A stretch of 51,417 bases of DNA from positions 1 through 51,417 of the IMG/VR virus record IMGVR_UViG_3300032180_000008. One strand, 5' to 3'. Below the pieces are notes generated by a model. That model made no database searches. It was given only the letters and a program-made list of their open reading frames with translations, and was not told where the DNA came from. The stretch is from a virus. Both the position numbers and the translations under genes were made by a program. Positions 1-51,417 of this stretch are shown one piece after another (position 1 is the stretch's first letter; the number at the start of each line of letters is the position of its first letter).

Positions 1-1478
1 CCTGCCTCTTCGGCGACAGGACCTTCGCCCGGAATACCCTTCTCGGTCTCGGTCACTCGGGTGGCGATGCGGCCCGTGGCCTTACCCCAAATTTCGGGGT
101 CTCCACCGGCCGAGGCCAGTCCCGGGTCTCCCCAGCGCTCGCCGAACATCCGGGCCCGCATGATCTCATCCGGGTAGTCCTGCTCGGGATCGAACCCGTT
201 GGCTCGCAGCCAAGCCTTGGGCTCGAGGATGCCGGCGTTGTAGCCCACCGTGGCGGCTGCGGAGCGATCGGGCTTCGCGACCACCGGGGATTCGTCGTAC
301 CAGATGATCTGACGCTTGGCGAGGCGCGGGTCCATGCCTCCGGCGATCAGGAAGGGCTGGTAGACCGAGATGGCGAGGTTGGCGAGGATGCGCTCCACGA
401 TGGGTCTCAGATGGGGCCAGGTCATGGAGTCCACGATCCAGGCGTTCCAATGTGTCATGTCCCCGAGCCCCGTCAACAATTCGGTCGGGAGGTCGAAGTC
501 GTGGGCGAAGCGGGTGCGTAGCTCGAGGATTGCGTCCCGCACGTCCTTGGGCATGTCCTTGAACAGCGGCATCCAGCGGAGGAACTCGGGCTTGAGGAAC
601 TCGCTCTTGCCCTTCACCACCACCGGGAACCAGCGGGCAGGCGAGTTCGGAGACTTGATCGCCGTCCTGCCGGCCTGCAACAGTTCGTCCTCGAACTTCG
701 TGGGTTCCCCATCGGGGCCGACCGTGCCCTCGAGATCCAACTCGTCCGGGATCGTCAGGACGCCTCCGGAGGCGATGCGGGACTTGGCCGCAGCGATGCC
801 CGCTTGGATCAGGAGCCACAGTTCCTCGAGCGTGTCGGACTGGGCCAGCATGGGGGAGGTGGCGAAGTGCTTGAACATCGGATCCGGCGTCCACATGCGG
901 GCCAGCAGATCCCGCCCCTCCACCACGTCTATCGGTGGCACTCCCGGCTCGCGGTAGATCCGGAACCCGTTGCCCGAAGGCTGAAGCTCCTCAGTCGAGA
1001 GGATCTCGTGGGTGTTCTCGCCCGTCTCGGGATTGGGGGTGGAGAACCAAAAACATTCTCCAGGTATGGAATCGTGCAGGGTCAGGGCGGCCAGCATGGG
1101 TCCGTGACCGAGCGCCAGCCCGCTGTAGCCTGCCGAGAGGTCGTCCAGCACGCTCTGCTGGAGCGAGAACTCATCGTCCAGGGGAACCGGATCGTCTTGG
1201 GGCCTCGTGATCTCAGCCGGGAAGATGCTGATTCCCGAGATGGCATTCGCTTTGAAGACATTGGCGTAGAACACGGCTCCGATGCCCCGGAAATACTGCC
1301 AGGCAAGGTGCTGGGATGCCTGCCGGGTCCGACGCACATCCATCGCGGAGGCGGTGTTGATCGCCATCGGCGAAGCACTCGCAACGACGGTCGGGCGTCG
1401 GACGGTGGGCGTGATGGCGCGGCTGGCGGGATGGGGAACTACGAGGGTGTTGCTGGTGCGGGCGAGGGTGAGCGTCAC
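1..1478 (-). CDS. Phage portal protein (C-terminus beyond window)
   Basis: About 492 residues are visible; the reading frame is still open at base 1. The portal is the dodecameric ring at one capsid vertex through which DNA is packaged and ejected. The signature is in the second half: a segment with DLPTELLTGLGDMTHWNAW followed by a helix-rich stretch (HLRPIVERILANLAISVYQPF) and KRQIIWYDESPVVAKPDRS, as in SPP1 gp6/actinophage-type portals. The start is taken as GTG at 1478, whose GTGA overlaps the stop of the upstream gene; no ATG fits. It lies downstream of both terminase genes, the usual phage order. The family call is from memory of motifs; fold class is not certain. Confidence 0.85.
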   Translation of the reverse strand, partial: MTLTLARTSNTLVVPHPASRAITPTVRRPTVVASASPMAINTASAMDVRRTRQASQHLAWQYFRGIGAVFYANVFKANAISGISIFPAEITRPQDDPVPLDDEFSLQQSVLDDLSAGYSGLALGHGPMLAALTLHDSIPGECFWFSTPNPETGENTHEILSTEELQPSGNGFRIYREPGVPPIDVVEGRDLLARMWTPDPMFKHFATSPMLAQSDTLEELWLLIQAGIAAAKSRIASGGVLTIPDELDLEGTVGPDGEPTKFEDELLQAGRTAIKSPNSPARWFPVVVKGKSEFLKPEFLRWMPLFKDMPKDVRDAILELRTRFAHDFDLPTELLTGLGDMTHWNAWIVDSMTWPHLRPIVERILANLAISVYQPFLIAGGMDPRLAKRQIIWYDESPVVAKPDRSAAATVGYNAGILEPKAWLRANGFDPEQDYPDEIMRARMFGERWGDPGLASAGGDPEIWGKATGRIATRVTETEKGIPGEGPVAEEA

Positions 1479-2283: not shown

Positions 2284-2363
2284 AGTGCTCTCCGGTCAGC
2301 GGGCGAGGGTTGGGAAGAGTTTACGGATGGATTCGGGCAATGTCCACAGAGTGCCATTCCGCA

Positions 2364-3932
2364 CTAGCCGCCCAGCAACGTGCCGAGGTTGGTTGACCCC
2401 TTGTGGGGGCCGAGTAGCGAGAGACAGAGTGCGTCGGCGTCGTCCGGCGAAGGCAGGCCCCGGCGCTTGAGTGATTCCTTGGACTCCACTTCGATCCGGC
2501 CTCCCAAGCGGTAATCGTAGGTGATCGAGCAGACCTGAGAACGGAGCCGTGTTCGGGTGGGAGCATCCAACTCGGACAGGTTGAGCCGGTTCTGCTCGCA
2601 TCGTTCCCGCAGGCCCCACCACAACTCATCCCGCCGACGGACGAACTTCTCCGGATCCCGTGCCCGCTCCCCGGCGTTTACATCATTGACATGGATGCCC
2701 GGGGTGAGACGGATAAAGTCCAGCACCGGGCCCCCGAGCCCCGTTGAGTCCCCGTTGACCCGCTTGCACCCGTAGCGCCGCATCCGCTCTATCGCCCACG
2801 ACCCCACCTCTACGCCGTCGAAGCCGTGGATGCGTTCAAGGTGGCGCACGACCGGGCCCTGCCTGATGGCGATGGCGCTGTCGTCCGAACCGAACCGGGC
2901 GATGTCCAATCCCGCCTGGGGCTGCTCGTTCACCGCTGCGAGCCCGCTTGCCCTCTCGGCGCGCTCGAACCACTCCAGCAAGACCACATGCTTGGCCCCC
3001 GAGCCCTCCACGAACTGGCCCAGCACCTTCGTCTTCCACAGCGGGCCCGCCTTGGCTGGATCCCCGTCCCCGTCCGACCAATCCCCACCCGTCTGGCGCA
3101 TCTCCTCCACCCAGCGGTTCGTGACCAGGTTGGGCATCACGTCGTCCCGTCCCGCCACGAGGTTCGGCGTGTCGAAGGCCGAGATGGTGACGTGGTGCCA
3201 GAGAGCCGAGCGAGCGGCACGCTCGAAACCTCCCCCGATGCCCGACGGGTCGGGGTTGCCGATGGCGAGCACTGCCACATCCGCCGATGTCAACTGGCCT
3301 TCCATGATGTCCCACAGAGGCTCGGGGATACCCTCCGCTTCGTCCAGCACGAGCAGGACTCTCCCCCCATGCCAGCCGGAGAACATGTTCGGATCCTTCG
3401 TGCTGAATCCGAGGGCGAAGTTCGAGGGCGAGATGTTCCACTCCGCCGCCTTCGGGAGAAGTTGCCCAGGGAGCGACTCAAGCGCCCCGGTCTCATCTAC
3501 CCCCCGGAGCCGTCCCGAGAGGGCGTAGCGGCTGTGAAGCTGGCGGATCTCCCCCCAGAGTTGTTTGCGAATAGATCGGCCCACTGAGGCCGTGGTGATG
3601 GCAATGGCGTTCGGGTCCGTGCTGATCCAATGCGCCACCAACCGACCACCGAGGAACGTCTTGCCAGAGGAGAAGCAGGAGGACACCACCACCCGACGGT
3701 AGGCGAAGAGAGCATCGGCGATCTCGTCCTGCACTCGCCACAGGCGCTCTTGCAGCACTTCCCGGATCCAACGGCCGGGGGCTTCCCGGTACTCGGACCA
3801 CTTGGAGGCGTCAACCTCAGCCAGCAGCGCCCGTTCCTCGGAGCGGAGCCGCTCCAGTTCCTCAAGCTTGGCGAGCCTCTTTGCCTCCAGTGATGACGCG
3901 GAGTCTTGCAACTCTCTCGCGAGCCTGGGCAA
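2364..3932 (-). CDS. terL: Terminase large subunit
   Basis: 522 residues, normal length for TerL. It is the packaging motor: an ATPase that drives DNA into the prohead and a nuclease that cuts concatemers. Numbered from TTG at 3932: P-loop CFSSGKT at 86-92, Walker B LLVLDEAEG at 193-201, then an RNase H-like nuclease with DIARFGSDDS (343-352), NGDSTGLGG (393-401) and SPDDADAL (495-502) supplying the acidic triad. The N-terminal 40 residues are a charged coiled coil. The start is uncertain: the frame overlaps the end of the small-subunit gene by 71 bases, and a later TTG in the same frame is possible. The classical first Gly of Walker A is Cys here. Confidence 0.95.
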   Translation of the reverse strand: MPRLARELQDSASSLEAKRLAKLEELERLRSEERALLAEVDASKWSEYREAPGRWIREVLQERLWRVQDEIADALFAYRRVVVSSCFSSGKTFLGGRLVAHWISTDPNAIAITTASVGRSIRKQLWGEIRQLHSRYALSGRLRGVDETGALESLPGQLLPKAAEWNISPSNFALGFSTKDPNMFSGWHGGRVLLVLDEAEGIPEPLWDIMEGQLTSADVAVLAIGNPDPSGIGGGFERAARSALWHHVTISAFDTPNLVAGRDDVMPNLVTNRWVEEMRQTGGDWSDGDGDPAKAGPLWKTKVLGQFVEGSGAKHVVLLEWFERAERASGLAAVNEQPQAGLDIARFGSDDSAIAIRQGPVVRHLERIHGFDGVEVGSWAIERMRRYGCKRVNGDSTGLGGPVLDFIRLTPGIHVNDVNAGERARDPEKFVRRRDELWWGLRERCEQNRLNLSELDAPTRTRLRSQVCSITYDYRLGGRIEVESKESLKRRGLPSPDDADALCLSLLGPHKGSTNLGTLLGG

Positions 3933-4302
3933 GTTCCGCCTCCAGCGCCTCGTCCGTTATCTCCACCGTTCGCCGGGCAAACCTCGTCGGCCGGTCGGCA
4001 CGCATGAGTGTAATCAGGAGTTGGTCCGAGAACTTCCGCACCACCCCTACCTGCTCGCCCTTCTGGAACACCGGTTCATCCCAACCCTCTACGGCCCGCC
4101 GTCGGGCTTCGGCCTCGAGGATGTCGGCCGCTTCCTCAAGCGCCGTGTCCCACTGCTCCCGGAACTTGCTGGAGCGCCGACGGGCCTGGTAGCAAGCCTC
4201 CCGGGACACTCCGGCCTCTTGGGCAGCAAGCCGGACGTTGCCCGTGCTAGACAGAGCAGCGAGGAAATCCGGCTGCCACGCCCGCGCACGTTGGGCTGTC
4301 AA
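3862..4302 (-). CDS. terS: Terminase small subunit
   Basis: 146 residues from TTG at 4302, chosen because TTGA overlaps the stop of the upstream gene; the frame is open further up to an ATG at 4419, but that part overlaps the upstream gene. TerS recognises the packaging site and recruits TerL. Visible: an N-terminal helix-turn-helix (TGNVRLAAQEAGVSREACYQARR), an acidic-basic helix (EEAADILEAEARRRAVEGWDEPVF), then KFSDQLLITLMRADRPTRF, the typical ending of this family, and a C-terminal coiled coil. It is directly upstream of TerL. Confidence 0.88.
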   Translation of the reverse strand: MTAQRARAWQPDFLAALSSTGNVRLAAQEAGVSREACYQARRRSSKFREQWDTALEEAADILEAEARRRAVEGWDEPVFQKGEQVGVVRKFSDQLLITLMRADRPTRFARRTVEITDEALEAELAQARERVARLRVITGGKEARQA

Positions 4303-4541
4303 CTTTGTGTCAACCCCGCTGGCTCCGGCCCGTCCAGCACCCCCAGCAAGCGCCTTCCCTCCCAGCAGGGCATCCCGGGGGCACCACATCGACACCCTTC
4401 GGGCTCGAGGTCTCCCCATGCCCGGTGGGGATGCTCCTCACAGACGGTCCCGCAGCCCAAGCAAAACGGGCAAGCGACCAGGATCTCCGACAGACCATCG
4501 ACGGGACGGGTACAGCCGAACTGGTCCACGATGCTGCGCAC
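4299..4541 (-). CDS. Small Cys-rich phage protein (zinc ribbon-like)
   Basis: 80 residues from GTG at 4541. Central part holds CPFCLGCGTVCEEHPHRAW followed by CRCGAPGMPC, a cysteine/histidine arrangement I recognise as recurrent in tiny actinophage proteins next to terminase genes and likely to bind zinc. Overlaps the small terminase start by TTGA and follows the coiled-coil gene by 5 bases. Role unknown; regulation or assembly of the packaging complex is a guess. Confidence 0.75.
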   Translation of the reverse strand: MRSIVDQFGCTRPVDGLSEILVACPFCLGCGTVCEEHPHRAWGDLEPEGCRCGAPGMPCWEGRRLLGVLDGPEPAGLTQS

Positions 4542-4876: not shown

Positions 4877-5303
4877 ACGGGGAGAGTGTACGACGCTTGA
4901 GGCGGGGGGCCAATCACCGGCGTCACCGAGAGGGGCAAGTCGGGTCTGTCCCCCTCCCGGTGGCGGTTTGCCCCGGCGTGTTGCTCTCTGTTCGGGGCTT
5001 CGGCTCTACGGTGAGTGACCGTACCCTCTGGGCGGTACGAAGCCCTGACCGGACCACTGCCCGACTGCCGGTCTTTGCCGAGTGTCACCGCTTCGTCGCT
5101 CTGCCCCTCGTTGGCAATCCAAAATCGGTGACGTGAGGGTCCCCACGCGAACCCATCCCTGACCGGAACCTCTCGCTGAGGGTTGGTTGCGTGGGCACCT
5201 CAGCTACCCATCCCGGACCTCGCCGACACCTTGACCCAGCATCAAGCGCATCGGGTTGAGCGCCAACCCCATCCGCTCTCTGCCGGAGGTACGCACGTCA
5301 CCG
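4877..5303 (-). other. Non-coding stretch between packaging operon and tRNA
   Basis: No convincing gene in 427 bases. A 71-codon leftward frame (4873-5088) ends in an ATGA overlap with the coiled-coil gene, but its composition is not protein-like. The stretch should contain the packaging-operon promoter, though I see no clear -35/-10 pair and no ACAAGGTAA box. It holds the hairpin at 5143-5194 and a smaller one (GGTT/AACC arms) near 5250. A packaging (cos/pac) site next to the small terminase is plausible here but not shown. Confidence 0.5.
5143..5194 (-). repeat. Long imperfect hairpin downstream of the tRNA
   Basis: Arms at 5143-5160 and 5179-5194 pair over about 16 positions with small bulges (CCACGC closing pairs, AACC/GGTT inside). 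It lies 110 bases downstream of the tRNA on its strand, so it may end the tRNA transcript or be a structured leader of the packaging operon. Confidence 0.5.
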
Positions 5304-5377
5304 TTGCCCCGGCCGGATTTGAACCGACAAGCTTTGGCTTATGAGGCCAACGAGCTACCAGATTGCTCCACGGGACG
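5304..5377 (-). tRNA. tRNA-Met (CAU), initiator-like
   Basis: 74 bases without encoded CCA. Acceptor arm 5377-5371 pairs with 5311-5305 over six pairs while the first pair is a C-A mismatch, the hallmark of bacterial initiator tRNA. D-stem is GAGC/GCTC, giving the R11-Y24 pair also typical of initiators. Anticodon stem TTGGC/GCCAA closes the loop CTCATAA with anticodon CAT. T-loop TTCAAAT is normal. The anticodon stem lacks the full three G-C pairs of canonical initiators (29-31 are GGC). Folding was done by eye. Confidence 0.88.
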
Positions 5378-5409: not shown

Positions 5410-5847
5410 CTACGCTGCCGGGCGCGGGCCTAGCTCCGTGTCGGGGTCCCCTTCCTGCGCCAGCTTCCACAGGGGAGCAAGGTCGATCCAGATACCGGCC
5501 GATCCTTCCCCGATGGCGACGGTGGCGGTCCAGCGCTTCCGGCGACGGCGGATTGCCTCCCGCAGCCCCATGCGGTCCCCGGGCAATCCCGGCTCAGTGA
5601 GCTCCCGGATGCTTTGCAGCGACGCGCCCAAGCTCAGAAGCCTCCGGATCGCTAGGGCCAGCACCAGATCCTCACGGGAGTAGAGTCGCTGGCTTCCCGA
5701 GCCCTGCGCCAGAGCAACCGAGGGCTGCAAGAGTCCTGTTCGATCCCACCAGTCCAGTTGGCGGTAACTGATCCCCGAGACGCGGCAGAGTTGCGGACCA
5801 CGGTAGACGCCCGAGTGGTTCGGCTGGGAGAGAGTGCGGATGCTCAC
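5410..5847 (-). CDS. MerR-type transcriptional regulator
   Basis: 145 residues from GTG at 5847; the frame is open further upstream, but that part lies over the gene at 5919-6107 and is Arg/Gly-rich noise. A winged helix-turn-helix is visible: GISYRQLDWWDRTGLL, a wing with SGSQRLYSREDL, and helices ALAIRRLLSLGASLQSIREL. The C-terminal part is short and has no Cys cluster, so it is not a metal sensor. It could bind the TTGTNNACAA palindromes on this element, but there is no direct evidence. Confidence 0.85.
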   Translation of the reverse strand: MSIRTLSQPNHSGVYRGPQLCRVSGISYRQLDWWDRTGLLQPSVALAQGSGSQRLYSREDLVLALAIRRLLSLGASLQSIRELTEPGLPGDRMGLREAIRRRRKRWTATVAIGEGSAGIWIDLAPLWKLAQEGDPDTELGPRPAA

Positions 5848-5918
5848 GCCCTGAATCCTACCCTGTGCTAGGTAGTCCAGAATGGAACTTCCTGTGAATT
5901 CTTCCTGAACCGCTCCCA

Positions 5919-6107
5919 CTATCTCTCTGGCTCGTTCAGCGTCGCCGTCAGCCTGCGCCCCACTTCCCACGGCGGCTCCCCCATCACCACTGTCATCGGG
6001 ACGGTCCAGCGGACCTCCAGCACGGTCCCGGGCACCCAAGGAGGCTCACCCGACACCACGACCATCCTACTGGGAATCAACTTGTCTACAAAACCACTCG
6101 GAGTCAT
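5919..6107 (-). CDS. GEPPW-repeat small protein A
   Basis: 62 residues, ATG at 6107 with GGAG ten bases upstream. It contains two copies of a short unit: SGEPPWVPGTVLEV and MGEPPWEVGRRLTATL, so it looks like an internally duplicated beta-hairpin module. A paralogue lies at 11323-11517 with the same two repeats. Function unknown; I do not recognise a domain family. Position 6082-6091 inside its 5' end carries the TTGTCTACAA palindrome. Confidence 0.75.
   Translation of the reverse strand: MTPSGFVDKLIPSRMVVVSGEPPWVPGTVLEVRWTVPMTVVMGEPPWEVGRRLTATLNEPER
6082..6091. promoter_or_regulatory. TTGTNNACAA palindrome, copy 1
   Basis: TTGTCTACAA, identical over CAACTTGTCTACAAA to the site at 43341-43350. 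Here it falls in the first codons of the GEPPW gene. A regulator-binding role is inferred from the symmetry and the recurrence in control regions. Confidence 0.4.
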
Positions 6108-10606: not shown

Positions 10607-10704
10607 CGGATGTCCAAGCGCTCAAGCCGGCGAAGGTGCTCACGGCTCGCCGCCGGCAGACCGCGCCAGATGTCTCGCCAGCGCCAGAGCCATCGGCGGA
10701 TCAC
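10603..10704 (-). CDS. 33-residue Arg/Trp-rich peptide
   Basis: Fits exactly between two genes with GTGA overlaps at both ends (10704 and 10606), which is strong evidence for a translated frame. Peptide is rich in Trp and Arg (IRRWLWRWRDIWRGL) and likely amphipathic. Function unknown; it may serve mainly for translational coupling. Confidence 0.5.
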   Translation of the reverse strand: MIRRWLWRWRDIWRGLPAASREHLRRLERLDIR

Positions 10705-40732: not shown

Positions 40733-43179
40733 AAATCGGCTACCTGGAGCCCCCCGTCGACCGGGGGATTCTGTCCGACGGGATCTTCGCCGAGTGCCTC
40801 CAGGATGGCATTGTCGAGCCCGTCGAGAGCCGCGACGGTGTCGGTCGCCAGCCGGTAGCGGGGGTCCCCAGCGATGGTGGACTCCAGCGCCCCGGGCTTG
40901 GACGGGTAGAGCTCGCCGGGTTGCAAGGGTCGCACCTGGAACGCGGGGGAGCGCCGGTCCTCATGCACGATCGAGGCGAGGAAGTGGAACCGGGCGGTAT
41001 CCATGATGTCCGCGGCTCCCGCGCCGGACCACTCCTTGGCGATCAGGGAGGCAGCAGCGTAGGAGACGGCCGTGGTGGCGATGGCGGACCCGTTGGTGAA
41101 AATGGCCTCGATGGTCCCGGGCTTGAGCTTGATCGGGGACTGGGAGAGGATCTCGGCCCGCATCCCGTACTTCCCCTGCTCCTGGAGCCCGACGGCGAGG
41201 TCCGGCCCGTCGTACGTCGGGGCCTCGTCATAGATGGTCAGGAACCGCGGGCAGCGGGTGGCCCGAACGTCTGCCGGCGTGTCGGCCCGGGAGGACCCGC
41301 CCATCAGGAGCCCCCGGACGAACAGGGAGGTAGGCAAAGCATCCTGCCCATCCCCCTTCCGGGCATTGCTGAACAGCAGGACCCACCGGGCGTCCATGGC
41401 CTTGCGGAAGTCGAACGTGGAGGGCCCCCCGAGGAACGCCGCGGTGGGGACGTGGGAGCGGAGCCGGTTGATCAGGTTCGTCACGGTGAGGGGAGCGTCC
41501 TTCGGCAGCCGGGGGAAGTCGTCCTCCCACCAAGCCCGGGTGGACCGGGGAAGGTGGCGCATGACAGCCTTCCGCCAAGCCTCGTTGTTGATCAGCGTGG
41601 GGATCTGGAAGAATGTCGGCACCAGTGGGGAACCCACTTCGGCGAGAGCCTGGGCAAGAGCGATCAGGGCCTGCCCGCACGCGACCACGATGGCGGTGGC
41701 GCGCGGAGCAAAGCTGGCGCTCCACTTAGTGGCGGCCTGGAATGCGGACGTGACGGCCCCGAGCGCCGCGTTGGCCTCCTGGGGAGAAGCCCGGCCGGCA
41801 TCGAAGGGGTTCCAGCACGGCAGGTAGAGCCGGGTCCACTGCCGCCCCAGGTCGATGATGAGCCCCCGGCTGGGGAACAGGAAAGCGAAGGGCTCCAGGT
41901 CCCCGATAGCGTCCCCGGCTGGATCCACGAAGGCCCCGCCCAGACCCAGCCCGTACGGAGGGTCCGCGACCCACGACAGGAACCGTGTCATGGCTGCCGA
42001 GCTTTTCCCCCAGCGCGTTTTGCCACACTCTGCCCCGAAGAAGAACTCCTCCCACCGCGTACCGACGGGCTCGGGGTAGCCGTCGACAATCCCGAGCGGC
42101 CGGATACCCGGCCCCAAAGGCAACAGCCCACGCGGTGGCGGGGCGGCAGCGCCGGACCGCCAAAGATCCGCGTGGCCGTTCTTCGCGGTGGGAGGCTTCA
42201 GGAGGCCCAGGATCTCGGTGGCGGAGACCCGGGGGCGCCCACGCGAACCCGGGAAGGTCCCCAGCTCCAATCGGGTGTCGAAACCCTCGCGCACCAGCGG
42301 CCAGTCACTGGTGGGACGGCCGAAAAGAGCGCGGGGCGTGAACCAGTTACCCCCCTGGGGAGAGGCCCACTGCCTCAATGGAGCGCCGGTCACGGCGTCA
42401 ACCAAAAGCCTGGCGCGCTCACGCGTACCAGCTTGGGCCACGGCCAGGCACTGGACATGGAAAAGCGGGGCGGGAGACCCGGGCTTCGCGCCAGAAGCCT
42501 TGCGCACAGGAGCGGTAAGAACAGGTACAGCAGAGCGGGACGCAGGCCCGAGCGGTTGGGAGAGCTGCCGGAAGGCATGGCCCACGTTCACCTTCGCGCG
42601 CGGGGAAGGCTCCTCGCGTTCGGTGAAAACCTCCGCGTGAGCCTGGTGGGATAAAGGCAAGAGGTCGAAGTACACGGCCAGATCCTCGTCAACCTGCACG
42701 GTGGCGAACACACGCGCGAAGCCGGTCAGCGGATCGGGGTCGAGACCAACTGGGGCCAGTAGGTGCCCGTCCGGACGGGCCAGGACCATCTCGCGCCGCA
42801 CGGTGAAGCGAGGCATGTCCCTCTCGGGTTCGGAGGGCTCACGGACCGAAAGCCCTGCGGGCAGGTGGGGGCGGAGCTGCGCCAGCATGTCCGCCGGGGC
42901 CTCGAGCCGGTAGCCGAGCCTCCCGGGAGGGATCGTGACCAGCCCGATCCGGATGGCGTCGGCCGAGCGCGTGGCTATGGGTCCCGTTCGCCGGACGGAG
43001 GCGAATGCGCTGGCGAGGCGCATCAGCTCCTCGCCCGTGGGGTCGAAGGCTCTGGAGGGGATGAGGTCAATCCCCTCCCTGGTCGCTGCGCGCCTGCGGA
43101 TGGCGCTGCGCAGGACCGCGGGGGAGGCGAGTCCCCCGGCAGCGAGAGCGCCCGGAAGGGCGATCAGAGCGGGGATCAT
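40729..43179 (-). CDS. VirD4/TraG-like type IV coupling ATPase
   Basis: 816 residues, ATG at 43179 (ATAA end overlapping the next gene). Hydrophobic N-terminus (3-30), a long unique domain up to about 340, then Walker A GKTRWGKS (386-393), a DPAGDAIGDLE segment, Walker B LTIYDEAPTYDG (647-658), and LSQSPIKLKPGTIEAIFTNGSAIATT, the conserved arm of this family. Coupling proteins feed DNA to the secretion channel; here it would link the relaxosome to VirB4 and VirB6. It is long for VirD4, with an extended N-terminal part. Confidence 0.82.
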   Translation of the reverse strand: MIPALIALPGALAAGGLASPAVLRSAIRRRAATREGIDLIPSRAFDPTGEELMRLASAFASVRRTGPIATRSADAIRIGLVTIPPGRLGYRLEAPADMLAQLRPHLPAGLSVREPSEPERDMPRFTVRREMVLARPDGHLLAPVGLDPDPLTGFARVFATVQVDEDLAVYFDLLPLSHQAHAEVFTEREEPSPRAKVNVGHAFRQLSQPLGPASRSAVPVLTAPVRKASGAKPGSPAPLFHVQCLAVAQAGTRERARLLVDAVTGAPLRQWASPQGGNWFTPRALFGRPTSDWPLVREGFDTRLELGTFPGSRGRPRVSATEILGLLKPPTAKNGHADLWRSGAAAPPPRGLLPLGPGIRPLGIVDGYPEPVGTRWEEFFFGAECGKTRWGKSSAAMTRFLSWVADPPYGLGLGGAFVDPAGDAIGDLEPFAFLFPSRGLIIDLGRQWTRLYLPCWNPFDAGRASPQEANAALGAVTSAFQAATKWSASFAPRATAIVVACGQALIALAQALAEVGSPLVPTFFQIPTLINNEAWRKAVMRHLPRSTRAWWEDDFPRLPKDAPLTVTNLINRLRSHVPTAAFLGGPSTFDFRKAMDARWVLLFSNARKGDGQDALPTSLFVRGLLMGGSSRADTPADVRATRCPRFLTIYDEAPTYDGPDLAVGLQEQGKYGMRAEILSQSPIKLKPGTIEAIFTNGSAIATTAVSYAAASLIAKEWSGAGAADIMDTARFHFLASIVHEDRRSPAFQVRPLQPGELYPSKPGALESTIAGDPRYRLATDTVAALDGLDNAILEALGEDPVGQNPPVDGGLQVADL

Positions 43180-43387
43180 GTTCGCCCCGATTGCGAAACG
43201 CCGACAGGCGGGACGCTGTGAAGTACCGAAAATCCAGCGTAGCTGGAGATGAGGGGTCGCACCTTCACTGGGCTGGGCTCCTAGCTGGGAAAACTGGGCT
43301 CATGAGGGAATCCTAATATAGCCTAATACTCGCTGGCAACTTGTCTACAAATCGCCAAAGCGATAAGGGGATTCCAGCCAGTCACTT
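43180..43387. other. Regulatory interval with palindrome
   Basis: 208 bases without a gene. Contains TTGTCTACAA at 43341-43350; on the minus strand TTGTAG with TATTAG 16 bases on makes a candidate promoter for the coupling-protein gene, and TTGCCA/TATTAG is an alternative. No ACAAGGTAA box. Confidence 0.5.
43341..43350. promoter_or_regulatory. TTGTNNACAA palindrome, copy 3
   Basis: TTGTCTACAA, identical over 15 bases (CAACTTGTCTACAAA) to the copy at 6082-6091. Overlaps the predicted -35 of the conjugation-module promoter, a repressor-type position. Confidence 0.5.
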
Positions 43388-43750
43388 TCACGGCTTGAGC
43401 TCCGCCGGCATCGCAAACAATGGAGTGACCCACGGGAGACCAGCCCCGCGCTGGAACAGAACAGCACCGATGGCGTCTCTACCAGCCCTGTGTTCCTCCA
43501 TAGATCGTCCGGTGGTCAGAACATCGTCAACGATCAGGAGAGGGCCAGAGGTTACGTAGGGAGCGAGGGCATCGGCGATCCACCGGCCACCGCTGGGCAC
43601 GCCCTCCACGCTACCGAAGGCTGGGAGTACCTCCGACAGCATCAGGGCAAGCGTCTCAATGTCTTCGGAGGTGAGCCCGTCACAGTCGATTTTCCACGCT
43701 GAGAAGCCGCTACTGTGGAGCCTGAAACCTCCTTGGATGAAGATGCTCAC
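43388..43750 (-). CDS. Phosphoribosyltransferase-like protein
   Basis: 120 residues from GTG at 43750 (GTGA overlap). LLIVDDVLTTGRSME is a textbook PRPP-binding motif of ComF/type I phosphoribosyltransferases. It lacks the long hood domain and the flexible loop, so may be a minimal ComF-like protein. ComF relatives work in DNA uptake, which may be why it is in a T4SS cluster; the role is inferred. Confidence 0.7.
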   Translation of the reverse strand: MSIFIQGGFRLHSSGFSAWKIDCDGLTSEDIETLALMLSEVLPAFGSVEGVPSGGRWIADALAPYVTSGPLLIVDDVLTTGRSMEEHRAGRDAIGAVLFQRGAGLPWVTPLFAMPAELKP

Positions 43751-44343
43751 GGCGTCACCCCCTGAGCCTTCACGGCCTCGTAGATGGGCACCAGCGTAGA
43801 TCCCGGGGCTCCCCCGAAGGATTGGTAATGGCACTCGCACCACGGACTCTCTCCCAGGGCAGTGATCTGCACCAGCGGGTCCGACCCGAAGCTGGCTACC
43901 ACCCCGGCGTACTGCCTCGTCCCCAGGAGTTGAGCAATCGCCGCGGCACCATCGGCAGGAGTGGGGTACGTCGCCCAGTCCCGGCCGGCGAGGCTCATGC
44001 AGGGTCCCCCGGTGCAGGCGATGAACAGGAAGTTGTTCGCTGGCTGTCCCGGGTTGCCCCCGTTCTCCTGGTGGAACCAGGCCCGACAGACGTTCAGGTC
44101 GATCCCCGGGGAGCGAAGCTGGGCGGTCAGAATCACCAGATCCTGACACCCGCTCTCCTGGGTACTCGACAGCATCCCCGTGGCCGGAGCCGTGATGTCC
44201 ACCGTGGCCGTGGGTGTCACCTGAGCCGATACCGGTGCATCCGGGACGGTCCCGAAGCTGGCGAAGAACAGCGCCACGCCGAACAGCGCCGTAGCGCTGA
44301 GCCCGGCGGCGGCGGCGAAGATCAGCTTCACGCTGGCACCCAT
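43747..44343 (-). CDS. Secreted lytic-enzyme-like protein
   Basis: 198 residues. Signal/anchor at about 5-27 (KLIFAAAAGLSATALFGVALF), a short linker, then ICRAWFHQENGG-type segment: VCRAWFHQENGGNPGQPANNFLFIACTGG, WATYPTPADGAAAIAQLLGTRQYAG and SPWCECHYQS, matching lysozyme/glucosaminidase-type domains with the E in QEN as possible catalytic residue. Needed to open peptidoglycan for a T4SS channel or for virion entry. Confidence 0.72.
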   Translation of the reverse strand: MGASVKLIFAAAAGLSATALFGVALFFASFGTVPDAPVSAQVTPTATVDITAPATGMLSSTQESGCQDLVILTAQLRSPGIDLNVCRAWFHQENGGNPGQPANNFLFIACTGGPCMSLAGRDWATYPTPADGAAAIAQLLGTRQYAGVVASFGSDPLVQITALGESPWCECHYQSFGGAPGSTLVPIYEAVKAQGVTP

Positions 44344-44679: not shown

Positions 44680-46686
44680 TCACGGCTTGGGGTTTCGCCC
44701 GGCTGCCCGGTGGCGGAGTCGCTCCAAGGTCTGCCTGCCGAAGTCCTGGCGGGCCTGCTCCTGAGCGACTCTCTGGGCCTCCATGTCGGCCTCACGCTGG
44801 CGACGGGCTGCGATGTCGGCCAGTCCTGCCCGGATCTTCGTCGCCCTCGCCTGCTGGACCTGGCGGGCCTGAGACTGCTGGAAGGCATCGCCCTCCATGT
44901 AGGACGACAAAGCGCCCTGGGGGATCGCCAGGCGTGCCTCACGAGCGGCTGCGAGGCGGTCCCGGACTTCGGCGACCCGGTTCTGGAGAGGAACGCCTGC
45001 GCCCAGGGCTGCGGTGCCCACGCCCTCGGTCAGTTGCCTGCCGGCGTCCTTCATTCCCCTGGCGAGCCCGGCGACCGGCATGCCCACCCGGATCGCCGTT
45101 CGGGTCGCCAGGTCCTTCACCCGGTCCAGCCGGTCGGGGAACTCCTTCATGACCTTGTAGGTCCCCACCCCGAGCGCCGAGACTCCTGCGAGGTTGCGGA
45201 GCACATGGCCCGGCTTGGGAACCGACGGCCTCCAACCTCCACTTCCCCCCCTTCCCGCTGCGGCCCCGGCAAGTCCTCCTGCGAGAGCGGCACTTCCCCT
45301 GGTTGCGGCGGCGAAGAAGTGCTTCTTGGCGAAGAACGCCCCGACCACCACGGCCGAGACCATGACGGCCTTTTCGGCGGGCGGGTCGTTCTGGGTGATG
45401 CTCAGGCCCTGGGAGAAGAACATCACGAAGACCACCAGGAGGGCAGAGGCGGCCAGGATCGTGAAGGCGGCCTTGCCTGCCCACTGGGTCCACTTCCACG
45501 CGGCCTTGTGGCCGGGGAAGAGGGCCAGGGCGGCGAAGATCGAGAGCGTGGCGACCAGGGCGATCCCGAGGAGCTGGGCTCCCACCACAGCCAAGGCGAC
45601 GATGACGAGGAGGATCATGACGCCGAGGGAGAGGAGGACGAAGAACCAGGCGAACAGCCATCGTCCCCCGTTGCTCGGGTCGGCGTTGATATCGGCGTAC
45701 TTCGCACAGGCAGGGTCGGCCCGCATGGCGTCCCGGGGGGCGTTGTCCGACCCCCACGGCCCTTGGCTCAGGATGGCGTCCCGGATCACAGCGCAGTTTC
45801 CCGTCAGAGGCTGGCCCCAGTCCAGCTCGTCGTAGGGCTTGTCCACCAGGGCGGTACTGATCGCCCGGCGGAGGGGAGACAGGGAAGCCTGAAACTCCGG
45901 GTGGTCGAACTGGTTGGAGGGAGCAGGGATGGTCTGGCCCGCCTGGTTGTCGGTCGAGGCTTGCAGGATTGAGCCAGAGACATCGCTCGTGAGTCCGAGC
46001 GCTCCCCGGAAGTACCCGGCTGGGTTGGCCATGATGATGCCGAAGATGGCCCAGATGACCAGCGTGGCCGCGACTTCCCCCCCTGCTCTCGACCATCGGC
46101 CCTTGAACAACTGCCAGCCGCAGTAGAGGGCCAGCACCGCCATGGCAATGTGGCCGAAGCCGAACGGACCGATCAGGTGTGTGGTGAACAGCCGGGAGGT
46201 CTCGGCGGCCGGGGCGGCGAACTTGCTGGCGAAGGTGAAACTGAACGCCCAGGTGACGGCGAAGAGGCCGAAGCGGATGAACAGCATATTGACCGTCCAC
46301 GCCACGGTCATGAGCGTCCCGAAGAAGTGCCGGGACACGTCCGTTCCGCTGCCGGGATCGAAACCGAGGTCGTAGTTCTGCAGGGGGAAGCGGGTCCCCA
46401 CGTCCCCCGGCACCATCTCGCCAGCGAGGTCCACGGGTTGATGCCGAGGGGTGTACTCGGGATGGTGCTGTCGGCACTGCTGGAGGTTGACGAACCGGAT
46501 CGCCGCGTCCGCCTGGCTCTCGCCACCTTCGGGCGGGGCCACGTACTTCGCACACGGGTCCGGCTGTAGGAGGCTCGACACAGCGGGCGTGACGGTGTTC
46601 GTCGGGGTTGGAGGGGTCTGCGCCCACGCGGGAGCACCGATCAGCATGGCCCCCGCCGCCAGGAGCCCGGCAGCCGCCAGTCTCAC
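44680..46686 (-). CDS. VirB6/TrbL-like T4SS membrane protein
   Basis: 668 residues from GTG at 46686 (GTGA overlap); the upstream extension is noise. Signal peptide (RLAAAGLLAAGAMLIGAPAWAQ), an outer linker, then groups of membrane helices (TLMTVAWTVNMLFIRFGLFAV, GHIAMAVLALYCGWQLF, VMILLVIVALAVVGAQLLGIA, FTILAASALLVVFVMFF, SAVVVGAF) and a long basic, helical C-terminal tail (about 545-668, Arg/Gln/Ala-rich). Fits the TrbL/VirB6-like core channel protein of Gram-positive T4SS. The tail may dock to cytosolic ATPases. Confidence 0.78.
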   Translation of the reverse strand: MRLAAAGLLAAGAMLIGAPAWAQTPPTPTNTVTPAVSSLLQPDPCAKYVAPPEGGESQADAAIRFVNLQQCRQHHPEYTPRHQPVDLAGEMVPGDVGTRFPLQNYDLGFDPGSGTDVSRHFFGTLMTVAWTVNMLFIRFGLFAVTWAFSFTFASKFAAPAAETSRLFTTHLIGPFGFGHIAMAVLALYCGWQLFKGRWSRAGGEVAATLVIWAIFGIIMANPAGYFRGALGLTSDVSGSILQASTDNQAGQTIPAPSNQFDHPEFQASLSPLRRAISTALVDKPYDELDWGQPLTGNCAVIRDAILSQGPWGSDNAPRDAMRADPACAKYADINADPSNGGRWLFAWFFVLLSLGVMILLVIVALAVVGAQLLGIALVATLSIFAALALFPGHKAAWKWTQWAGKAAFTILAASALLVVFVMFFSQGLSITQNDPPAEKAVMVSAVVVGAFFAKKHFFAAATRGSAALAGGLAGAAAGRGGSGGWRPSVPKPGHVLRNLAGVSALGVGTYKVMKEFPDRLDRVKDLATRTAIRVGMPVAGLARGMKDAGRQLTEGVGTAALGAGVPLQNRVAEVRDRLAAAREARLAIPQGALSSYMEGDAFQQSQARQVQQARATKIRAGLADIAARRQREADMEAQRVAQEQARQDFGRQTLERLRHRAAGRNPKP

Positions 46687-47282
46687 AGCCGGTGCCCGAC
46701 CTGTTCGAGCCACGTCAGTGTAGGAGAGAACCCCCACCAGTAGACGAGTCCCCCGAAGACCACGGCAACCCACCAGAACCGAACGAGAGCGACGGCAACG
46801 AGCGTCCGCCGGAGGTAGGGCCAGAACCCCGGCGATGGCCGGTCGTGGCGTAGGAGACTCTCGGTACGGTTCACGGCCTGCGTCGCGGGGACGATCTCGT
46901 ACCACCGCTCCCGGTAGATTCCCCGGGCGGTATCTACGTGGGTGTAGCCGATGTGGTGCCCGACACGCTTGAGCCGGCCATTGCGACTACTGAGTAGGCG
47001 GACCCACCCTGCATAGACGAAACCGAAGACGGCGAAGTCCTGGATGGGCCATGCGAGAAGGATCCTCGCGGAACCGTGGAGCGAGTCGGCGAAGAGCCAG
47101 AAGGCGGCGAGGGGGCCCGCGGTTACCGTCCACCCGATACAGCGCCAGATAATGAAGGCCCGATCCCGTTTGGCGTACCACTCTGGGCTTCGGAGGTAGT
47201 CCGCCATGCTCTGCCGTGAGGCGACCCACGCCTCCCTCCGCACAGCAGCGCGGGCCTCTCGGACACTGGTGAGCCTAAGCAC
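46683..47282 (-). CDS. Membrane protein of the T4SS-like module
   Basis: 199 residues. Three to four membrane helices (about 43-66, 75-95, 160-180, 180-195) with charged loops, e.g. KRDRAFIIWRC and SRNGRLKRVGHHIGY. GTGA overlap with the VirB6-like gene. VirB3/TrbD-like by position and size only; not recognised by sequence. Confidence 0.62.
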   Translation of the reverse strand: MLRLTSVREARAAVRREAWVASRQSMADYLRSPEWYAKRDRAFIIWRCIGWTVTAGPLAAFWLFADSLHGSARILLAWPIQDFAVFGFVYAGWVRLLSSRNGRLKRVGHHIGYTHVDTARGIYRERWYEIVPATQAVNRTESLLRHDRPSPGFWPYLRRTLVAVALVRFWWVAVVFGGLVYWWGFSPTLTWLEQVGHRL

Positions 47283-47642: not shown

Positions 47643-48496
47643 CCCCAGTGCCAGCGGGCGGCGAGAAAGGCAATGACTATCAGCCCGAGCCCGAGCAGCC
47701 AGAGGAAGGTCAGGTGGAACCCACGGCCGCTCCCGAGCGTGTCGGATGCCCGGCGCGTGGTGGGTGCGGCGTCGAACTCGGGGGCCGTAGGATGAGCGGG
47801 TGAAACCGACGGCTGCGGAGACGGTGACGATGGCGGAGGCGTTCCGATGGCCACCACTGGCGTACCAGCGGGCGATGGGGGCTGCGGTGACGGGACTGGG
47901 GGTGGTGACGCCGTCGCTGGGGCGGTCGCTGCAGGCGCTGGCCGAGGCGGAGCTACGGGAGTACCGGAAATGGCTGGCTTCGCTGCCACCACTCTCGCTG
48001 GTACCGGGGCCACAGGAGCCGCCGCGCTCGCTACAGGACTCGGCGGAGCGGGCGGCAGCTCGCTGGCGAAGGTCACGTCGATCGTCGGCGTGCCGGTAGC
48101 TCCCTGGGGAAGCGGGCAGGTCACTTCGATCCGCCACGTCACGGGTGCCGTCATGTTCAGCGACCAGACGTAGGGAGGCGGAGCACCCGCACCGATGTGC
48201 TGCGAGTCCTGCTCGACCCCGTTGCGGTAGCGAGTCGTGGAGCAGGACGGGCCCGCCCAATTGGGGTCCCAGACATGCACCCAGGGCGTCACGTAGACCC
48301 ACAAGGGCCCGGTGTGGCCGTAGTCCTCGGCGGTGCCTGCGGTGATGACGTCGGCGCTCTGCTGAGTCGGCGTGGGAGAGATCGACATGCCCCAGGTGTA
48401 ACCGCCGTCGTTCGCTCGGGCAGCGGTGCCAGTCAGGACCAGAGCGGCAAGTAGCGCCAGCGTCCAGAGGATTCTGGCAAGCCTCGAAATCGTCAC
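47633..48496 (-). CDS. Cell-surface protein with Pro-rich stalk
   Basis: 287 residues: signal peptide (about 1-28, ALLAALVLTGTAARA), a beta-rich extracellular domain (about 30-140) with two cysteine pairs (PSCSTTRY, IEVTCPLP), a 120-residue Pro/Ala stalk, and a C-terminal membrane helix (FLWLLGLGLIVIAFLAARWHW). It follows VirB4 and could be the pilus-like or mating-contact protein, or a surface anchor. The last 10 bases overlap the coiled-coil gene. Confidence 0.72.
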   Translation of the reverse strand: MTISRLARILWTLALLAALVLTGTAARANDGGYTWGMSISPTPTQQSADVITAGTAEDYGHTGPLWVYVTPWVHVWDPNWAGPSCSTTRYRNGVEQDSQHIGAGAPPPYVWSLNMTAPVTWRIEVTCPLPQGATGTPTIDVTFASELPPAPPSPVASAAAPVAPVPARVVAAKPAISGTPVAPPRPAPAATAPATASPPPVPSPQPPSPAGTPVVAIGTPPPSSPSPQPSVSPAHPTAPEFDAAPTTRRASDTLGSGRGFHLTFLWLLGLGLIVIAFLAARWHWGWR

Positions 48497-51417
48497 GCGG
48501 GAACCTCCTCAAGTTGGCGCATCCGGGCGGGATTGGTTTCGTAGGCGATGGCGTGCTTGCCTTGGGGGGGCCGGACCCAGACGAGGCCGACTCTCCCGAG
48601 GGTGTCCCGGAGCAGGCACAGGGCAGGAGCGGGGGGGGCGGAGAGATCCAGGTCCCGGCGACGCATCTTCTCTTCCAGGAGGATCCGCAGATCGTCCGTG
48701 GGTTCCAGGCCGAGCAGGACTGCGGCTTCGTTGCCGGCGTTGCGGGCTTGACCGAAGAGGAAGCGGTACTCGAACTGGGCTGCGAGCTCGGGAGGCACAT
48801 CCCCCGGGTGCTGGGTGAGGATCCACACCGCGGCGTTCTCCTTGCGGCCCTTGCGGACCCCACCCTCGATCAACGACCTACCCGGGATGGTCGCCGTGTA
48901 GGTGTGGGCCTCGTCCAGGATCGCCACGGCGAAGCGTTGGGGGTCCAGGAGGGTGAATGCCTGCTGGACGGCCGCCACGGCGTAGAGGATCGCCACCGAG
49001 AAGTGCTGCTCGGGAAGGAGGTTGCGGCTCAGGTCGGGCGAGAGCATCTGCTCACGGGTCGGGAGGCTGAGGCCGGCCGCACCGAAGACCAGGGCGTCGA
49101 TGTTGCGGAGGTCCAGTACCTTCCGGTCCCGGTCGAACACGAGGGCTCCGAGCCACTCCCCGGACTTCGGGCGCCGGGCGAAGGTGTTCAGGTGCCGGAG
49201 GGCCAGGGCGGCTCCCTCCACTTCCCGCCTAGCCATGTCCTCCAGGATCTCCAGGGCGAGCGGCATGGAGGGCTCGGGAGAGTCCGCGGACTGCTCGATG
49301 GCCTCCTTGATCGACGTTCCCTCGTCTCCCCGGGGGTCGCAGCCGGCGATCATGGTGGCGAAGCCCAGGGCATAGCGTCGTCCTGCCCCCGGGTCGTGGG
49401 CGAAGACCCGGAGAGGGTCGATCGAAAGGGTCGGGCTCTCGGTGAGGTCCACGAGGGCCTTGCGCTCCTCCGGGAGATCCTGGACCGCCAGCCACCGTGC
49501 CCACTCCTGCTGGTTGGTCACGTCGATGGCCGTCACCATCCCGGCCTGGTCGATGACCGATGTCGCCAGCAGCTTGCCCGTGATGCTGTTGTGCGTCGGG
49601 ATCATTGAGCGTCCAGCCAGGAATAGGTGGGTCGGCGAGTCCACCACGATGCACTTGACCGGCACCGAGGCCACCGGACGCACATCCACGATGTAGCGGT
49701 ACTGAGAGGTTGACCGGAGTTTGGTAGGAAGCCGATCCACCTTTCGCTGAAGCCGGAACGCGGGCAGGGTGGTGGAGAAGTGAATGGCGTACTTTGGCCC
49801 GCAGTCCACCCCATTGAGCCGGGCTGTCCCCTTGATCAGGCTCGCTCGAACGCCGAGACTCCAAATAAGTTCACGAACATTCTCAGCAAGCCCGTAGTGG
49901 ACACTCACGAACTCGCATTGTCCGAGAACGGTCACATGGCCATCCGTGTCCATGAGTCCCTGTAGCAGAGCGAGGCGCTGGGCGAAGCTGGCCCGGAGGT
50001 ACTGGGGGGGGATGTGCTTGTTGCCGAGAAGCCCGAGCGATGTGAGGTGATCTCGGAAGCTTGGAACAGACATCTTGGTGGGTGCTGGAACGAACTGGAC
50101 ACCATTGCGACGTTGTTGACCCTCCCGTTGGCAGACTCTGCACAATGTCACCCCGCGACCACCATTTGGGTTGGTCCAGGTATAGGTTGATTCCTCGGTC
50201 CGAAGGTGGCCACCAGAACAATGCGAGCGCTCAGCACCACGCTGTACCGGGTCGATACGATAGAAACCAACCCTGGAAGCGGCCTTCTCAAGAGGGCGAA
50301 CGCGGTATCCAGCTGCCCGGATCTCATCGATTACCTGCACATCAGCATCGGCTGTCGTGATAGTCGTGTCTTTGGATGTCCCATCCCCGAGCCAAGCCCC
50401 CAAGACGTAGGGGTCGATGGGCAATGGGATCTCCGGGAGGTCGAGCGGCTGACATAGCCGAACAGCATGATTCGTTCCGCCATCCGCCCGACGAAGAGTC
50501 GCTTTGATCTCCCCAGTCGTCACGGTCGATGGTTTGGGCGGAGCAACCCGGCTCGCTCCTAGCCGCGCTATGGCAGCACGAACCGCGGCACCGTTGCGGT
50601 AACCAAGTTGCTCAGCGATCTCTCTAAAGGGCACTCCTGCGTCTCGGAGTGCAGACGCTTCCGTTGCTCTCGCAACCGTCTCTACTCGAACATAGCGCCG
50701 TGGGCGGCCGGTCCGGGCTCTAGCCTCACCTCGCGAGACAGAAGATCGATAAGCCGCGAGTTCCGTGTTCCATAGATGGCCCTCGTCGGCGACAATCACA
50801 CTGCCGTCGTCAAACACAACTTCATAGCAGGGTCGGTTCGGCTGCACTTGGCTTGTCGCTGTCACCCGAGTCGGCCGTCCATGTTCGTCCAGCACTTCAT
50901 CGCCCACTTGGATCTCCCCCATCGTGGTCCACCCGTCGGGCGTCGGGATGGGTGTGTCGAGCGCCAGAGCCTTGCCCTCGCCCGGCGCTCCGACGAAGAG
51001 GGCACTGCCTGAGCGCCCGATGCGCTGGGCCTCGGCCGGGTTGATGAGCACCAGGCGGGTGTGCCTGGCGGTGGCCGAGTACCCGAACAGGGTTCCCGAG
51101 CGGTCGCCGAGGTCGAGGCCCAGGAACAGGCCCAACTTGGAAAGATCCTCCGGGAAGAAGTGCTGGCGGTAGTCGGCCATCAGCATCGCCGCCTGTCTCC
51201 GCAGGGTTCCGGGCAGGCTGGCAGTGAAGAGGGGAAGCTGGCCGCCGGTCGGCCGCTGAAGTCTCCAGTCGATCGGGGCGTAGGCCCGGCGCAGGTCGGC
51301 GGCGCGCTCCTCGGCGTCCTGGGCGGTGGGGCCGTAGACGCAGAAGATCACACATGCCCGGTGCTCCGGGTCGTTCGTGGCGGCCAGGTGGTCCCGGAAC
51401 TCCTGGGTGGCGATGAT
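48493..51417 (-). CDS. virB4: VirB4-type T4SS ATPase split by an intein (N-terminus outside)
   Basis: The frame is open to the right edge, so the start is outside the window. Extein parts: RAADLRRAYAPIDWRL and LFLGLDLGDRSGTLFG, P-loop GAPGEGK immediately before the intein and SITGKLLA right after it; then VAILDEAHTYTA (Walker B), WILTQHPGDVPPELAAQFEYRFLFGQARN (motif of VirB4/TraC ATPases). VirB4 powers assembly of the secretion channel and pilus. The intein (49588-50970) must be removed by splicing to restore the P-loop. Confidence 0.85.
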   Translation of the reverse strand: MIATQEFRDHLAATNDPEHRACVIFCVYGPTAQDAEERAADLRRAYAPIDWRLQRPTGGQLPLFTASLPGTLRRQAAMLMADYRQHFFPEDLSKLGLFLGLDLGDRSGTLFGYSATARHTRLVLINPAEAQRIGRSGSALFVGAPGEGKALALDTPIPTPDGWTTMGEIQVGDEVLDEHGRPTRVTATSQVQPNRPCYEVVFDDGSVIVADEGHLWNTELAAYRSSVSRGEARARTGRPRRYVRVETVARATEASALRDAGVPFREIAEQLGYRNGAAVRAAIARLGASRVAPPKPSTVTTGEIKATLRRADGGTNHAVRLCQPLDLPEIPLPIDPYVLGAWLGDGTSKDTTITTADADVQVIDEIRAAGYRVRPLEKAASRVGFYRIDPVQRGAERSHCSGGHLRTEESTYTWTNPNGGRGVTLCRVCQREGQQRRNGVQFVPAPTKMSVPSFRDHLTSLGLLGNKHIPPQYLRASFAQRLALLQGLMDTDGHVTVLGQCEFVSVHYGLAENVRELIWSLGVRASLIKGTARLNGVDCGPKYAIHFSTTLPAFRLQRKVDRLPTKLRSTSQYRYIVDVRPVASVPVKCIVVDSPTHLFLAGRSMIPTHNSITGKLLATSVIDQAGMVTAIDVTNQQEWARWLAVQDLPEERKALVDLTESPTLSIDPLRVFAHDPGAGRRYALGFATMIAGCDPRGDEGTSIKEAIEQSADSPEPSMPLALEILEDMARREVEGAALALRHLNTFARRPKSGEWLGALVFDRDRKVLDLRNIDALVFGAAGLSLPTREQMLSPDLSRNLLPEQHFSVAILYAVAAVQQAFTLLDPQRFAVAILDEAHTYTATIPGRSLIEGGVRKGRKENAAVWILTQHPGDVPPELAAQFEYRFLFGQARNAGNEAAVLLGLEPTDDLRILLEEKMRRRDLDLSAPPAPALCLLRDTLGRVGLVWVRPPQGKHAIAYETNPARMRQLEEVPA
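49588..50970 (-). mobile_element. Class 3 intein with DOD homing endonuclease
   Basis: 461 residues, from Ala1 (ALALDTPIPTPDGWTTMGEI) to the C-terminal HN (LAGRSMIPTHN) before extein Ser. Ala instead of Cys/Ser at position 1, Trp in VADEGHLWNTE (block B), Cys440 in VPVKCIVVDSP (block F) and Thr before HN (block G) form the WCT set of class 3 inteins. Endonuclease blocks: LGAWLGDG (block C) and GLMDTDGH (block E), both Asp present. Inside it are a helix-turn-helix (FREIAEQLGYRNGAAVRAAI, 115-134) and a Cys/His ribbon (HCSGGHLR...CRVC, 250-280). It sits at the GK|S bond of the P-loop. Confidence 0.9.

Follow-up and report, generated by a model that had tools for sequence, protein, structure and literature searches.

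The sequence analysed here (the window) is the complete IMG/VR record IMGVR_UViG_3300032180_000008, 51,417 bases long and not closed, which carries phage packaging genes at one end and, at 38.7–51.4 kb, a putative type IV secretion system (T4SS) operon. The window starts within a minus-strand portal gene and ends within a minus-strand VirB4 gene; a comparison of its ends found no overlap, and its G+C content is even (0.63–0.69 in 2 kb steps over the whole window). Related viral records were retrieved with the portal protein as the query (G001, 98.9 kb, 75% identity; G002, 90.7 kb, 66%) and with the coupling ATPase of the operon (G003, 93.0 kb, 70%); the window and these three relatives are the four phage records referred to below. 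The genes of the two modules are as follows:

1–1367, minus strand: portal protein, cut at the contig start (phrog_776, E 8e-58)
2364–3932, minus strand: terminase large subunit, TerL (phrog_2, E 6e-18)
3862–4419, minus strand: terminase small subunit, TerS (phrog_4044, E 1.4e-33)
38713–39543, minus strand: MOBC-type relaxase, Replic_Relax (PF13814, over the cut-off)
39717–40172, minus strand: HNH endonuclease-like gene (phrog_2081, E 1e-9), with a homologue at the matching place in G003
40169–40732, minus strand: HNH endonuclease-like gene (phrog_144, E 3e-12)
40729–43179, minus strand: coupling-type ATPase (T4CP), with homologues in G001–G003 and in 119 Streptomyces/Kitasatospora plasmids
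43747–44343, minus strand: secreted-looking protein at the place of a VirB1-like hydrolase, without a Pfam family, with homologues in G002 and G003
44680–46686, minus strand: VirB6/TcpH-like polytopic protein (NF046089), with homologues in G001, G002 and G003
46683–47243, minus strand: small protein, membrane-type by reading, kept in the operons of G002 and G003
48493–51417, minus strand: VirB4/TcpF-type ATPase (PF12846 AAA_10; aligned with intact relatives), its N-terminal part lost at the contig end
49588–50970, minus strand: intein within the Walker A motif of VirB4, with a LAGLIDADG-like stretch (PF14528; alignment with intact relatives)

The order of transcription in the operon is VirB4, the small membrane-type protein, the VirB6/TcpH-like protein, the secreted-looking protein, the coupling ATPase, the two HNH genes and Replic_Relax. 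The window VirB4 matches PF12846 AAA_10 with 95 bits (cut-off 27.5); its intact relatives match TcpF and VirB4 models, far under the curated cut-offs, and a profile made of them found the VirB4-like 4ag5 among the PDB sequences (E 2e-8). The best PHROGs names for the window protein are 'terminase large subunit' (E 2e-31), but the aligned stretches of the three best matches fall within the intein or at its border; terminase matches of lower strength also occur, one of them outside the intein. The VirB6-like protein is similar to NF046089, the CD3337/EF1877 family (E 5e-20, 71.6 bits, under the cut-off of 120), as is its G001 counterpart (E 1e-8, under the curated cut-off), and at the hydrolase place of the operon G001 encodes an M23 peptidase. 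The name TcpE (PF12648) is given by Pfam to a G003 protein only, homologues of which adjoin VirB4 in G001 and G002. No Pfam family was found for the coupling ATPase; an NCBIfam aminotransferase match (E 0.003, far under the cut-off) was taken as chance, and a profile search against solved sequences found only a HerA-domain protein (E 0.55). An AlphaFold model of this protein, built from ten aligned homologues (mean predicted local distance difference test score 75), has R388 VirB4/TrwK, Cag-beta and TrwB as its leading PDB matches (E 2e-10 to 3e-6), with HerA types lower, which points to a T4CP of the FtsK/HerA class, a fold match that does not separate VirB4 from VirD4 types.

The relaxase family PF13814 is over its cut-off in all four phage records, with nicking activity as a prediction. 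According to Table 1 of PMC5357655, PF13814 is the MobC relaxase superfamily, and a relationship of MOBC relaxases to PD-(D/E)XK nucleases is described in PMC12857230. Known MOBC relaxases are TraX of pAD1 and MobC of CloDF13. Unlike those relaxases, the phage protein is known from its sequence, and its model gives only weak nuclease matches: the Foldseek search returned nothing under E 0.001, and the weak matches at E 0.02–0.08 included chains of XisH type, of Mus81 and of nickase N.BspD6I along with numerous winged-helix proteins. A second listing consisted mainly of matches to the N-terminal winged-helix part, so a nuclease fold is not demonstrated. In total, the operon contains most of the parts of a Gram-positive-type T4SS: a VirB4 ATPase, a predicted T4CP, a VirB6-like channel protein (below the cut-off) and a relaxase. 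Several likely homing elements also lie in it, namely the VirB4 intein (461 residues, directly after the Walker A lysine, first residue Ala; 22.4 bits with PF14528, slightly under the cut-off of 22.5) and the two HNH genes between the coupling ATPase and the relaxase, which are probably homing genes.

The TerS frame, absent from the automatic gene calls, was identified via phrog_4044, and the window TerL is 86% identical to that of G001 and 63% identical to that of G002. No head or tail genes were identified among the window genes; the contig stops in the portal. G001 encodes major head, major tail, adaptor and minor tail proteins, with homologues in G002 (of ten G001 proteins compared with families, two had none and one only a family of unknown function), and endolysin-type glycosidases are present in G002 and G003. 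A tailed phage is indicated by the portal, TerS and TerL of the window and by the head, tail and adaptor genes of relatives with overlapping ends. These overlaps contain 127/127, 147/148 and 259/272 identical bases in the three relatives, and in none of them does a 20-mer from the first 1.5 kb occur again anywhere but in the last 1.5 kb. G001, G002 and G003 all have circular maps, that of G003 being less clean since its ends fall within a repeat; such maps are compatible both with a replicon that is circular and with a virion genome that is linear and permuted. G001 and G002 hold both the portal and the coupling ATPase, and G003 has the coupling ATPase without this portal. The order of the main blocks is alike, running from the ParB-like gene through TerL, the portal and the head and tail genes to the T4SS operon and the small genes; the MerR-containing block is placed differently in the window and in G003.

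The phage and T4SS genes almost certainly form part of a single phage genome. The window probably represents about half of this genome, which would have a circular map and a size of ~90–100 kb; the head–tail genes would lie in the missing half, and the window fits the part of the circle without them. A join of two neighbouring elements was rejected on the basis of the three end-overlapping relatives with the same arrangement. An assembly artefact, or two neighbouring chromosomal elements, is very improbable: the window is indeed an unclosed fragment without an end overlap, but the arrangement is shared by those three further records, the G+C content is even, and a related chromosomal T4SS, on the Solirubrobacteraceae contig G004, is surrounded by cellular genes, unlike that of the phage records. 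Much of an earlier note, made from the window sequence, is borne out by these results. The packaging and T4SS genes that it saw on one element are recognised by PHROGs, Pfam, NF046089 and model matches; its replication-relaxation protein is PF13814; its VirD4-like coupling ATPase agrees with the modelled similarity to TrwK, Cag-beta and TrwB, within the resolution given above; the single replicon that it proposed is supported by phage modules and T4SS standing together in three further records with end overlaps. Out of its sight were the cuts inside the portal and VirB4 genes and the intein that interrupts VirB4. Capsid and tail genes, sought outside the window, are present in the relatives, and the comparison of gene order across related genomes gave the same main block order.

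Two side observations concern the relatives. A second structural-block protein of G001 (16120–18354, L047) matches the portal family phrog_859 with its C-terminal part and is perhaps a head-morphogenesis protein. The contig end of G003 (92141–93031) encodes a protein of short SATV-type repeats, which may explain why the assembly stopped there.

A comparison of the coupling ATPase with 50,697 phage records gave no matches, and it matches 119 of 72,556 plasmids, all of Streptomyces or Kitasatospora. The Streptomyces linear plasmids NZ_CP109080 and NZ_CP107900 carry VirB4, a gene at the VirB6 position, a hydrolase (lytic transglycosylase/C40 hydrolase) and a coupling ATPase ~30% identical to that of the window, arranged in the same order, and also, close by, a replication-relaxation gene, which directly follows the coupling ATPase in NZ_CP107900 only. 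Unlike the phage records, these plasmids carry TcpC, and Tad pilus genes downstream, and no head or tail genes are annotated in the stretches read. The Tcp system of pCW3 is similar in the TcpF-like VirB4 and the CD3337/EF1877-type VirB6-like protein (both below curated cut-offs) and in TcpE; it differs in that the phages are without TcpC and have a MOBC-type relaxase instead of TcpM (PMC6499999).

The T4SS proteins of the window are closest to those of G003 (VirB4 68%, coupling ATPase 70%, secreted protein 55%, VirB6 44%, relaxase 80%, small protein 31% identity) and more distant from those of G001 (VirB4 35%, coupling ATPase 36%, VirB6 30%, relaxase 32%). The window TerL and portal have no blastp match in G003 at 1e-5, and G003 has a different portal and TerL and head-like and tape-measure-like proteins. 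Trees of 14 rows (four phage, nine Streptomyces, two of them on plasmids, and one Solirubrobacteraceae, G004) place the four phage rows on one side of a branch with support 100/98 for VirB4 and 100/99 for the coupling ATPase. Within the phages, the VirB4 tree pairs the window with G003 and G001 with G002, and the coupling ATPase tree has G001 outermost; long branches are those of G004 in the former and of G001 and one plasmid row in the latter. Within the limits of these few rows, the T4SS seems to have been acquired a single time by the phage group and to have kept its place during the exchange of modules; since the phage copies form one clade apart from the sampled plasmid copies, the link between T4SS and phage looks old and kept. 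Between the window and G003, the nonsynonymous and synonymous divergences (dN/dS) are 0.23/1.10 for the coupling ATPase, 0.24/0.86 for VirB4, 0.18/0.86 for the relaxase, 0.52/1.13 for VirB6 and 0.49/0.95 for the secreted protein, so dN is below dS in 5/5 T4SS pairs; the values between the window and G001 are 0.21/1.09 for the portal and 0.11/0.97 for TerL, all ratios being rough because synonymous sites are near saturation. By these estimates, the T4SS genes are intact and evolving under purifying selection.

A candidate control element of the operon is a palindrome, ACTTGTCWACAAA, found exactly at window positions 6080, 36518 and 43339, each time between called genes; with up to two mismatches allowed, 0.42 occurrences are expected, and 1/100 shuffles reached three. 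The sites and the neighbouring regulator are:

5410–5847, minus strand: MerR-family regulator (PF13411, E 2e-13 on the longer frame 5410–6039)
6080–6092, no strand: palindrome site 1, ACTTGTCTACAAA, matching the G003 site at 22165
36518–36530, no strand: palindrome site 2, ACTTGTCAACAAA, matching the G003 site at 7898
43339–43351, no strand: palindrome site 3, upstream of the coupling ATPase, matching the G003 site at 14205

The core TTGTNNACAA occurs four times in G003. Three of the copies correspond to the window sites: one precedes the coupling ATPase, one separates the homologues of window genes 74 and 77, and one lies upstream of the MerR homologue (G003_30), between G003_30 and the divergent T4SS side. 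The MerR-family regulator is a likely binder of the palindrome; UTRA/GntR regulators stand beside the operon in G001 and G002.

The VirB4 of G002 matches three phage records, the pneumococcal IPP61 and two Enterococcus records, one of which is an unverified, unannotated contig. IPP61 (KY065497, L127) contains a whole Tn916, with excisionase and transposase, inserted in a pneumococcal prophage. A phage genome record holding a T4SS operon therefore has a precedent, but this, the nearest one met, is a nested integrative and conjugative element with its own excisionase and transposase. IPP61 differs from the present case in that its Tn916 is a discrete insertion with excisionase, transposase and ORF13, whereas in the four phage genomes no tyrosine integrase was found and the operon occupies one place in the block order. 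Lytic or otherwise ordinary phages with a functionless conjugation operon would agree with such passengers in prophages and with the lack of both lysogens and tyrosine integrases in our searches; this explanation is nevertheless improbable, given that the sampled trees show a single, deeply branching T4SS clade of these phages, that all four genomes share one block order, that dN/dS is ~0.2–0.5, that the palindromes stand at matching places in two genomes and that, unlike in IPP61, no tyrosine integrase was found.

The best explanation, to which a probability of roughly 55% can be assigned, is that the phage genome carries the T4SS as a standing module and that its DNA is also passed through this T4SS. 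The phages are most likely phage-plasmids with this additional ability. Spread by conjugation is plausible from the gene content (VirB4, VirB6, T4CP and MOBC relaxase, with TcpE and an M23 peptidase in the relatives), and that the T4SS moves the DNA of the element between cells is, by a small margin over even chances, what the predicted components suggest. In a plasmid-like, non-lytic phase, a regulator at the palindrome would switch the operon on; the MOBC relaxase would nick the phage DNA, the coupling ATPase and VirB4 would feed it into a VirB6/TcpE channel, the wall hydrolase would open the peptidoglycan, and the DNA would enter an adjacent cell or hyphal compartment. The second route would be packaging, by TerS, TerL and the portal. 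A broader proposal stands at about even odds: that this virus lineage encodes two ways of spreading, virions and a VirB8-less T4SS, and that the conjugation module belongs to its old core although relatives exchange it as freely as head modules.

Several results weigh against transfer through the T4SS and against a plasmid state. VirB8/TcpC (PF12642) was found in 0/4 phage records versus 2/2 plasmids, and a profile built from the two plasmid TcpC proteins gave no phage protein at E ≤ 10; this profile matches 8/10 plasmid or chromosome loci, two of them being its own rows, and misses L088 and L094, the latter with a shorter upstream flank. The VirB8 gene would lie upstream of VirB4, where the window is cut; the relatives have overlapping ends. 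The VirB8-like TraH is reported as essential in pIP501 (PMC4840375). No Tad pilus genes were noticed in the phage gene calls, where no dedicated search was made. The gene expected of an integrative element was not found: tyrosine integrase (PF00589) has a match in 0/4 records at E ≤ 0.1, and resolvase (PF00239) was absent from the window, with a short fragment in G001 alone, in agreement with the earlier note, which had seen no integrase separating the modules. A scan of 84,980 genomes for TerL relatives matched short patterns in 28 stretches, none of which was confirmed, so that no lysogen is known; this is compatible with a purely lytic life. The evidence bearing on a plasmid state thus consists of ParA in 1/4 records (G001 alone), tyrosine integrase in none, three circular maps and no lysogen. 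The palindrome has no copy in G001 or G002, and the common control at which it hinted in the earlier note is supported for the window and G003, with their three matching places, and not for the whole group. Finally, the interpretation rests on four metagenomic records.

The absence of VirB8, also with the plasmid-built profile, is the main point in favour of a different explanation, one phage genome whose incomplete or repurposed T4SS would not suffice for transfer of the element. Such a T4SS might hinder other conjugative elements, depend on VirB8 supplied by a host plasmid, or carry DNA solely from one mycelial compartment to another. We regard this as possible but rather unlikely. The relaxase family is kept in 4/4 records and would presumably be needless for a blocking device; the two ATPases and the operon order have persisted through deep divergence, with dN < dS; and, since the topology and domain composition of VirB8 homologues are reported to vary (PMC12857230), a remote one in the phages could escape detection.

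If the phages do pass their DNA through the T4SS, this would widen the known abilities of phage-plasmids and provide a transfer route needing no phage receptor; phages and conjugative elements are treated as separate DNA-moving routes, and phages that keep a conjugation operon through deep divergence would join them. It also raises the question of whether a Gram-positive-type T4SS can be functional without VirB8. P1-like phage-plasmids similarly have a plasmid-type gene on a phage genome (here ParA, in G001 only), and an own T4SS is not mentioned for them in the available text. The prophage Phi1207.3 of Streptococcus pyogenes moves by a process that fits an operational definition of conjugation (PMC4260502); its mechanism is unknown, and the available text does not contain the words 'type IV' or 'relaxase', whereas here the T4SS genes are explicit and the transfer is deduced from them. 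In the available main text of the T4SS review PMC12857230, no word starts with 'phage' or 'bacteriophage'. No paper on a phage that has a T4SS operon of its own was recognised in the literature from titles and the starts of abstracts, a weak negative, since subscription papers were mostly outside the coverage.

The viral scans with the alignments of the coupling ATPase, VirB4 and TerL, which rest on short peptide patterns, revealed no further member beyond one 25% match (L126); 37 viral contigs matching the window VirB4 were left unused, as all matches lie within residues 99–650, around the intein. The scan of the 84,980 genomes with the coupling ATPase gave 30 loci: one of Solirubrobacteraceae (35% identity), seven of Streptomyces (29–31%) and 22 at 21–25%, mostly in Patescibacteria-type metagenome-assembled genomes. 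The Solirubrobacteraceae contig G004 was rejected as a host prophage, since its translations read as cellular genes around the T4SS (among them a sigma factor, transporters and, at one end, a protein like RNA polymerase beta); it otherwise matches phage proteomes once, weakly, with a structural-block protein of G001/G002, and it does not count as evidence of a host. The portal has relatives in 846 records, mostly of actinophages, and TerL in 410 mixed records, 174 of them of Salinibacter; from this pattern we infer that the host is probably actinobacterial.

Seventeen actinobacterial plasmids were chosen for TerL or portal matches (all 7 portal-matching and 10/48 TerL-matching ones), and a T4SS was found in one of them, the 245 kb linear plasmid of Streptomyces sp. 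NBC_00464 (W02). It was rejected as a phage-plasmid with a T4SS: in its first 100 kb, a terminase-like gene stands alone, and neither head nor tail genes are annotated. This terminase-like gene, without annotated phage genes around it, lies at L087 12554–14176 (NZ_CP107900 62554–64176). The 86 kb circular plasmid NZ_CP031143 of Saccharopolyspora pogona (L067/L068) has a phage-plasmid-like annotation (ParA, RecT, minor capsid, tail), with several proteins occurring two or three times under one accession.

The region between the packaging end and the operon contains many small genes, a methyltransferase, a helicase, a primase/helicase pair and one tRNA-Met; the features identified are:

5303–5377, minus strand: tRNA-Met (cat) (ARAGORN; Rfam RF00005)
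10701–11222, minus strand: ParB-like/methyltransferase-like protein (phrog_498, phrog_620), without a Pfam family, with homologues in G001, G002 and G003
24205–25545, minus strand: replication helicase-like ATPase (PF13481; phrog_6012)
25542–26291, minus strand: primase-like protein (PF12965; phrog_849, E 9e-4)

The ParB-like gene near TerL was not counted as evidence of partition. A 448-residue protein with a Gly/Ser/Pro-rich tail, encoded at 15904–17250, reads as secreted; it has no Pfam family and is 58% identical to its G003 counterpart. A DUF5131 protein (23199–24029) was found in 4/4 phage records, and we take this family to be the same as the 'Gp37/Gp68 family' annotated in the Saccharopolyspora plasmid. 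An RlaP-type nucleotidyltransferase, of the kind involved in RNA repair, is encoded at 34368–35129. A family of ~35–50 base repeats with a core like TTACCTTGT occurs in both orientations at window positions 10270, 14677, 21458, 30231, 33167 and 37195; these repeats are possibly promoters or replication sites.
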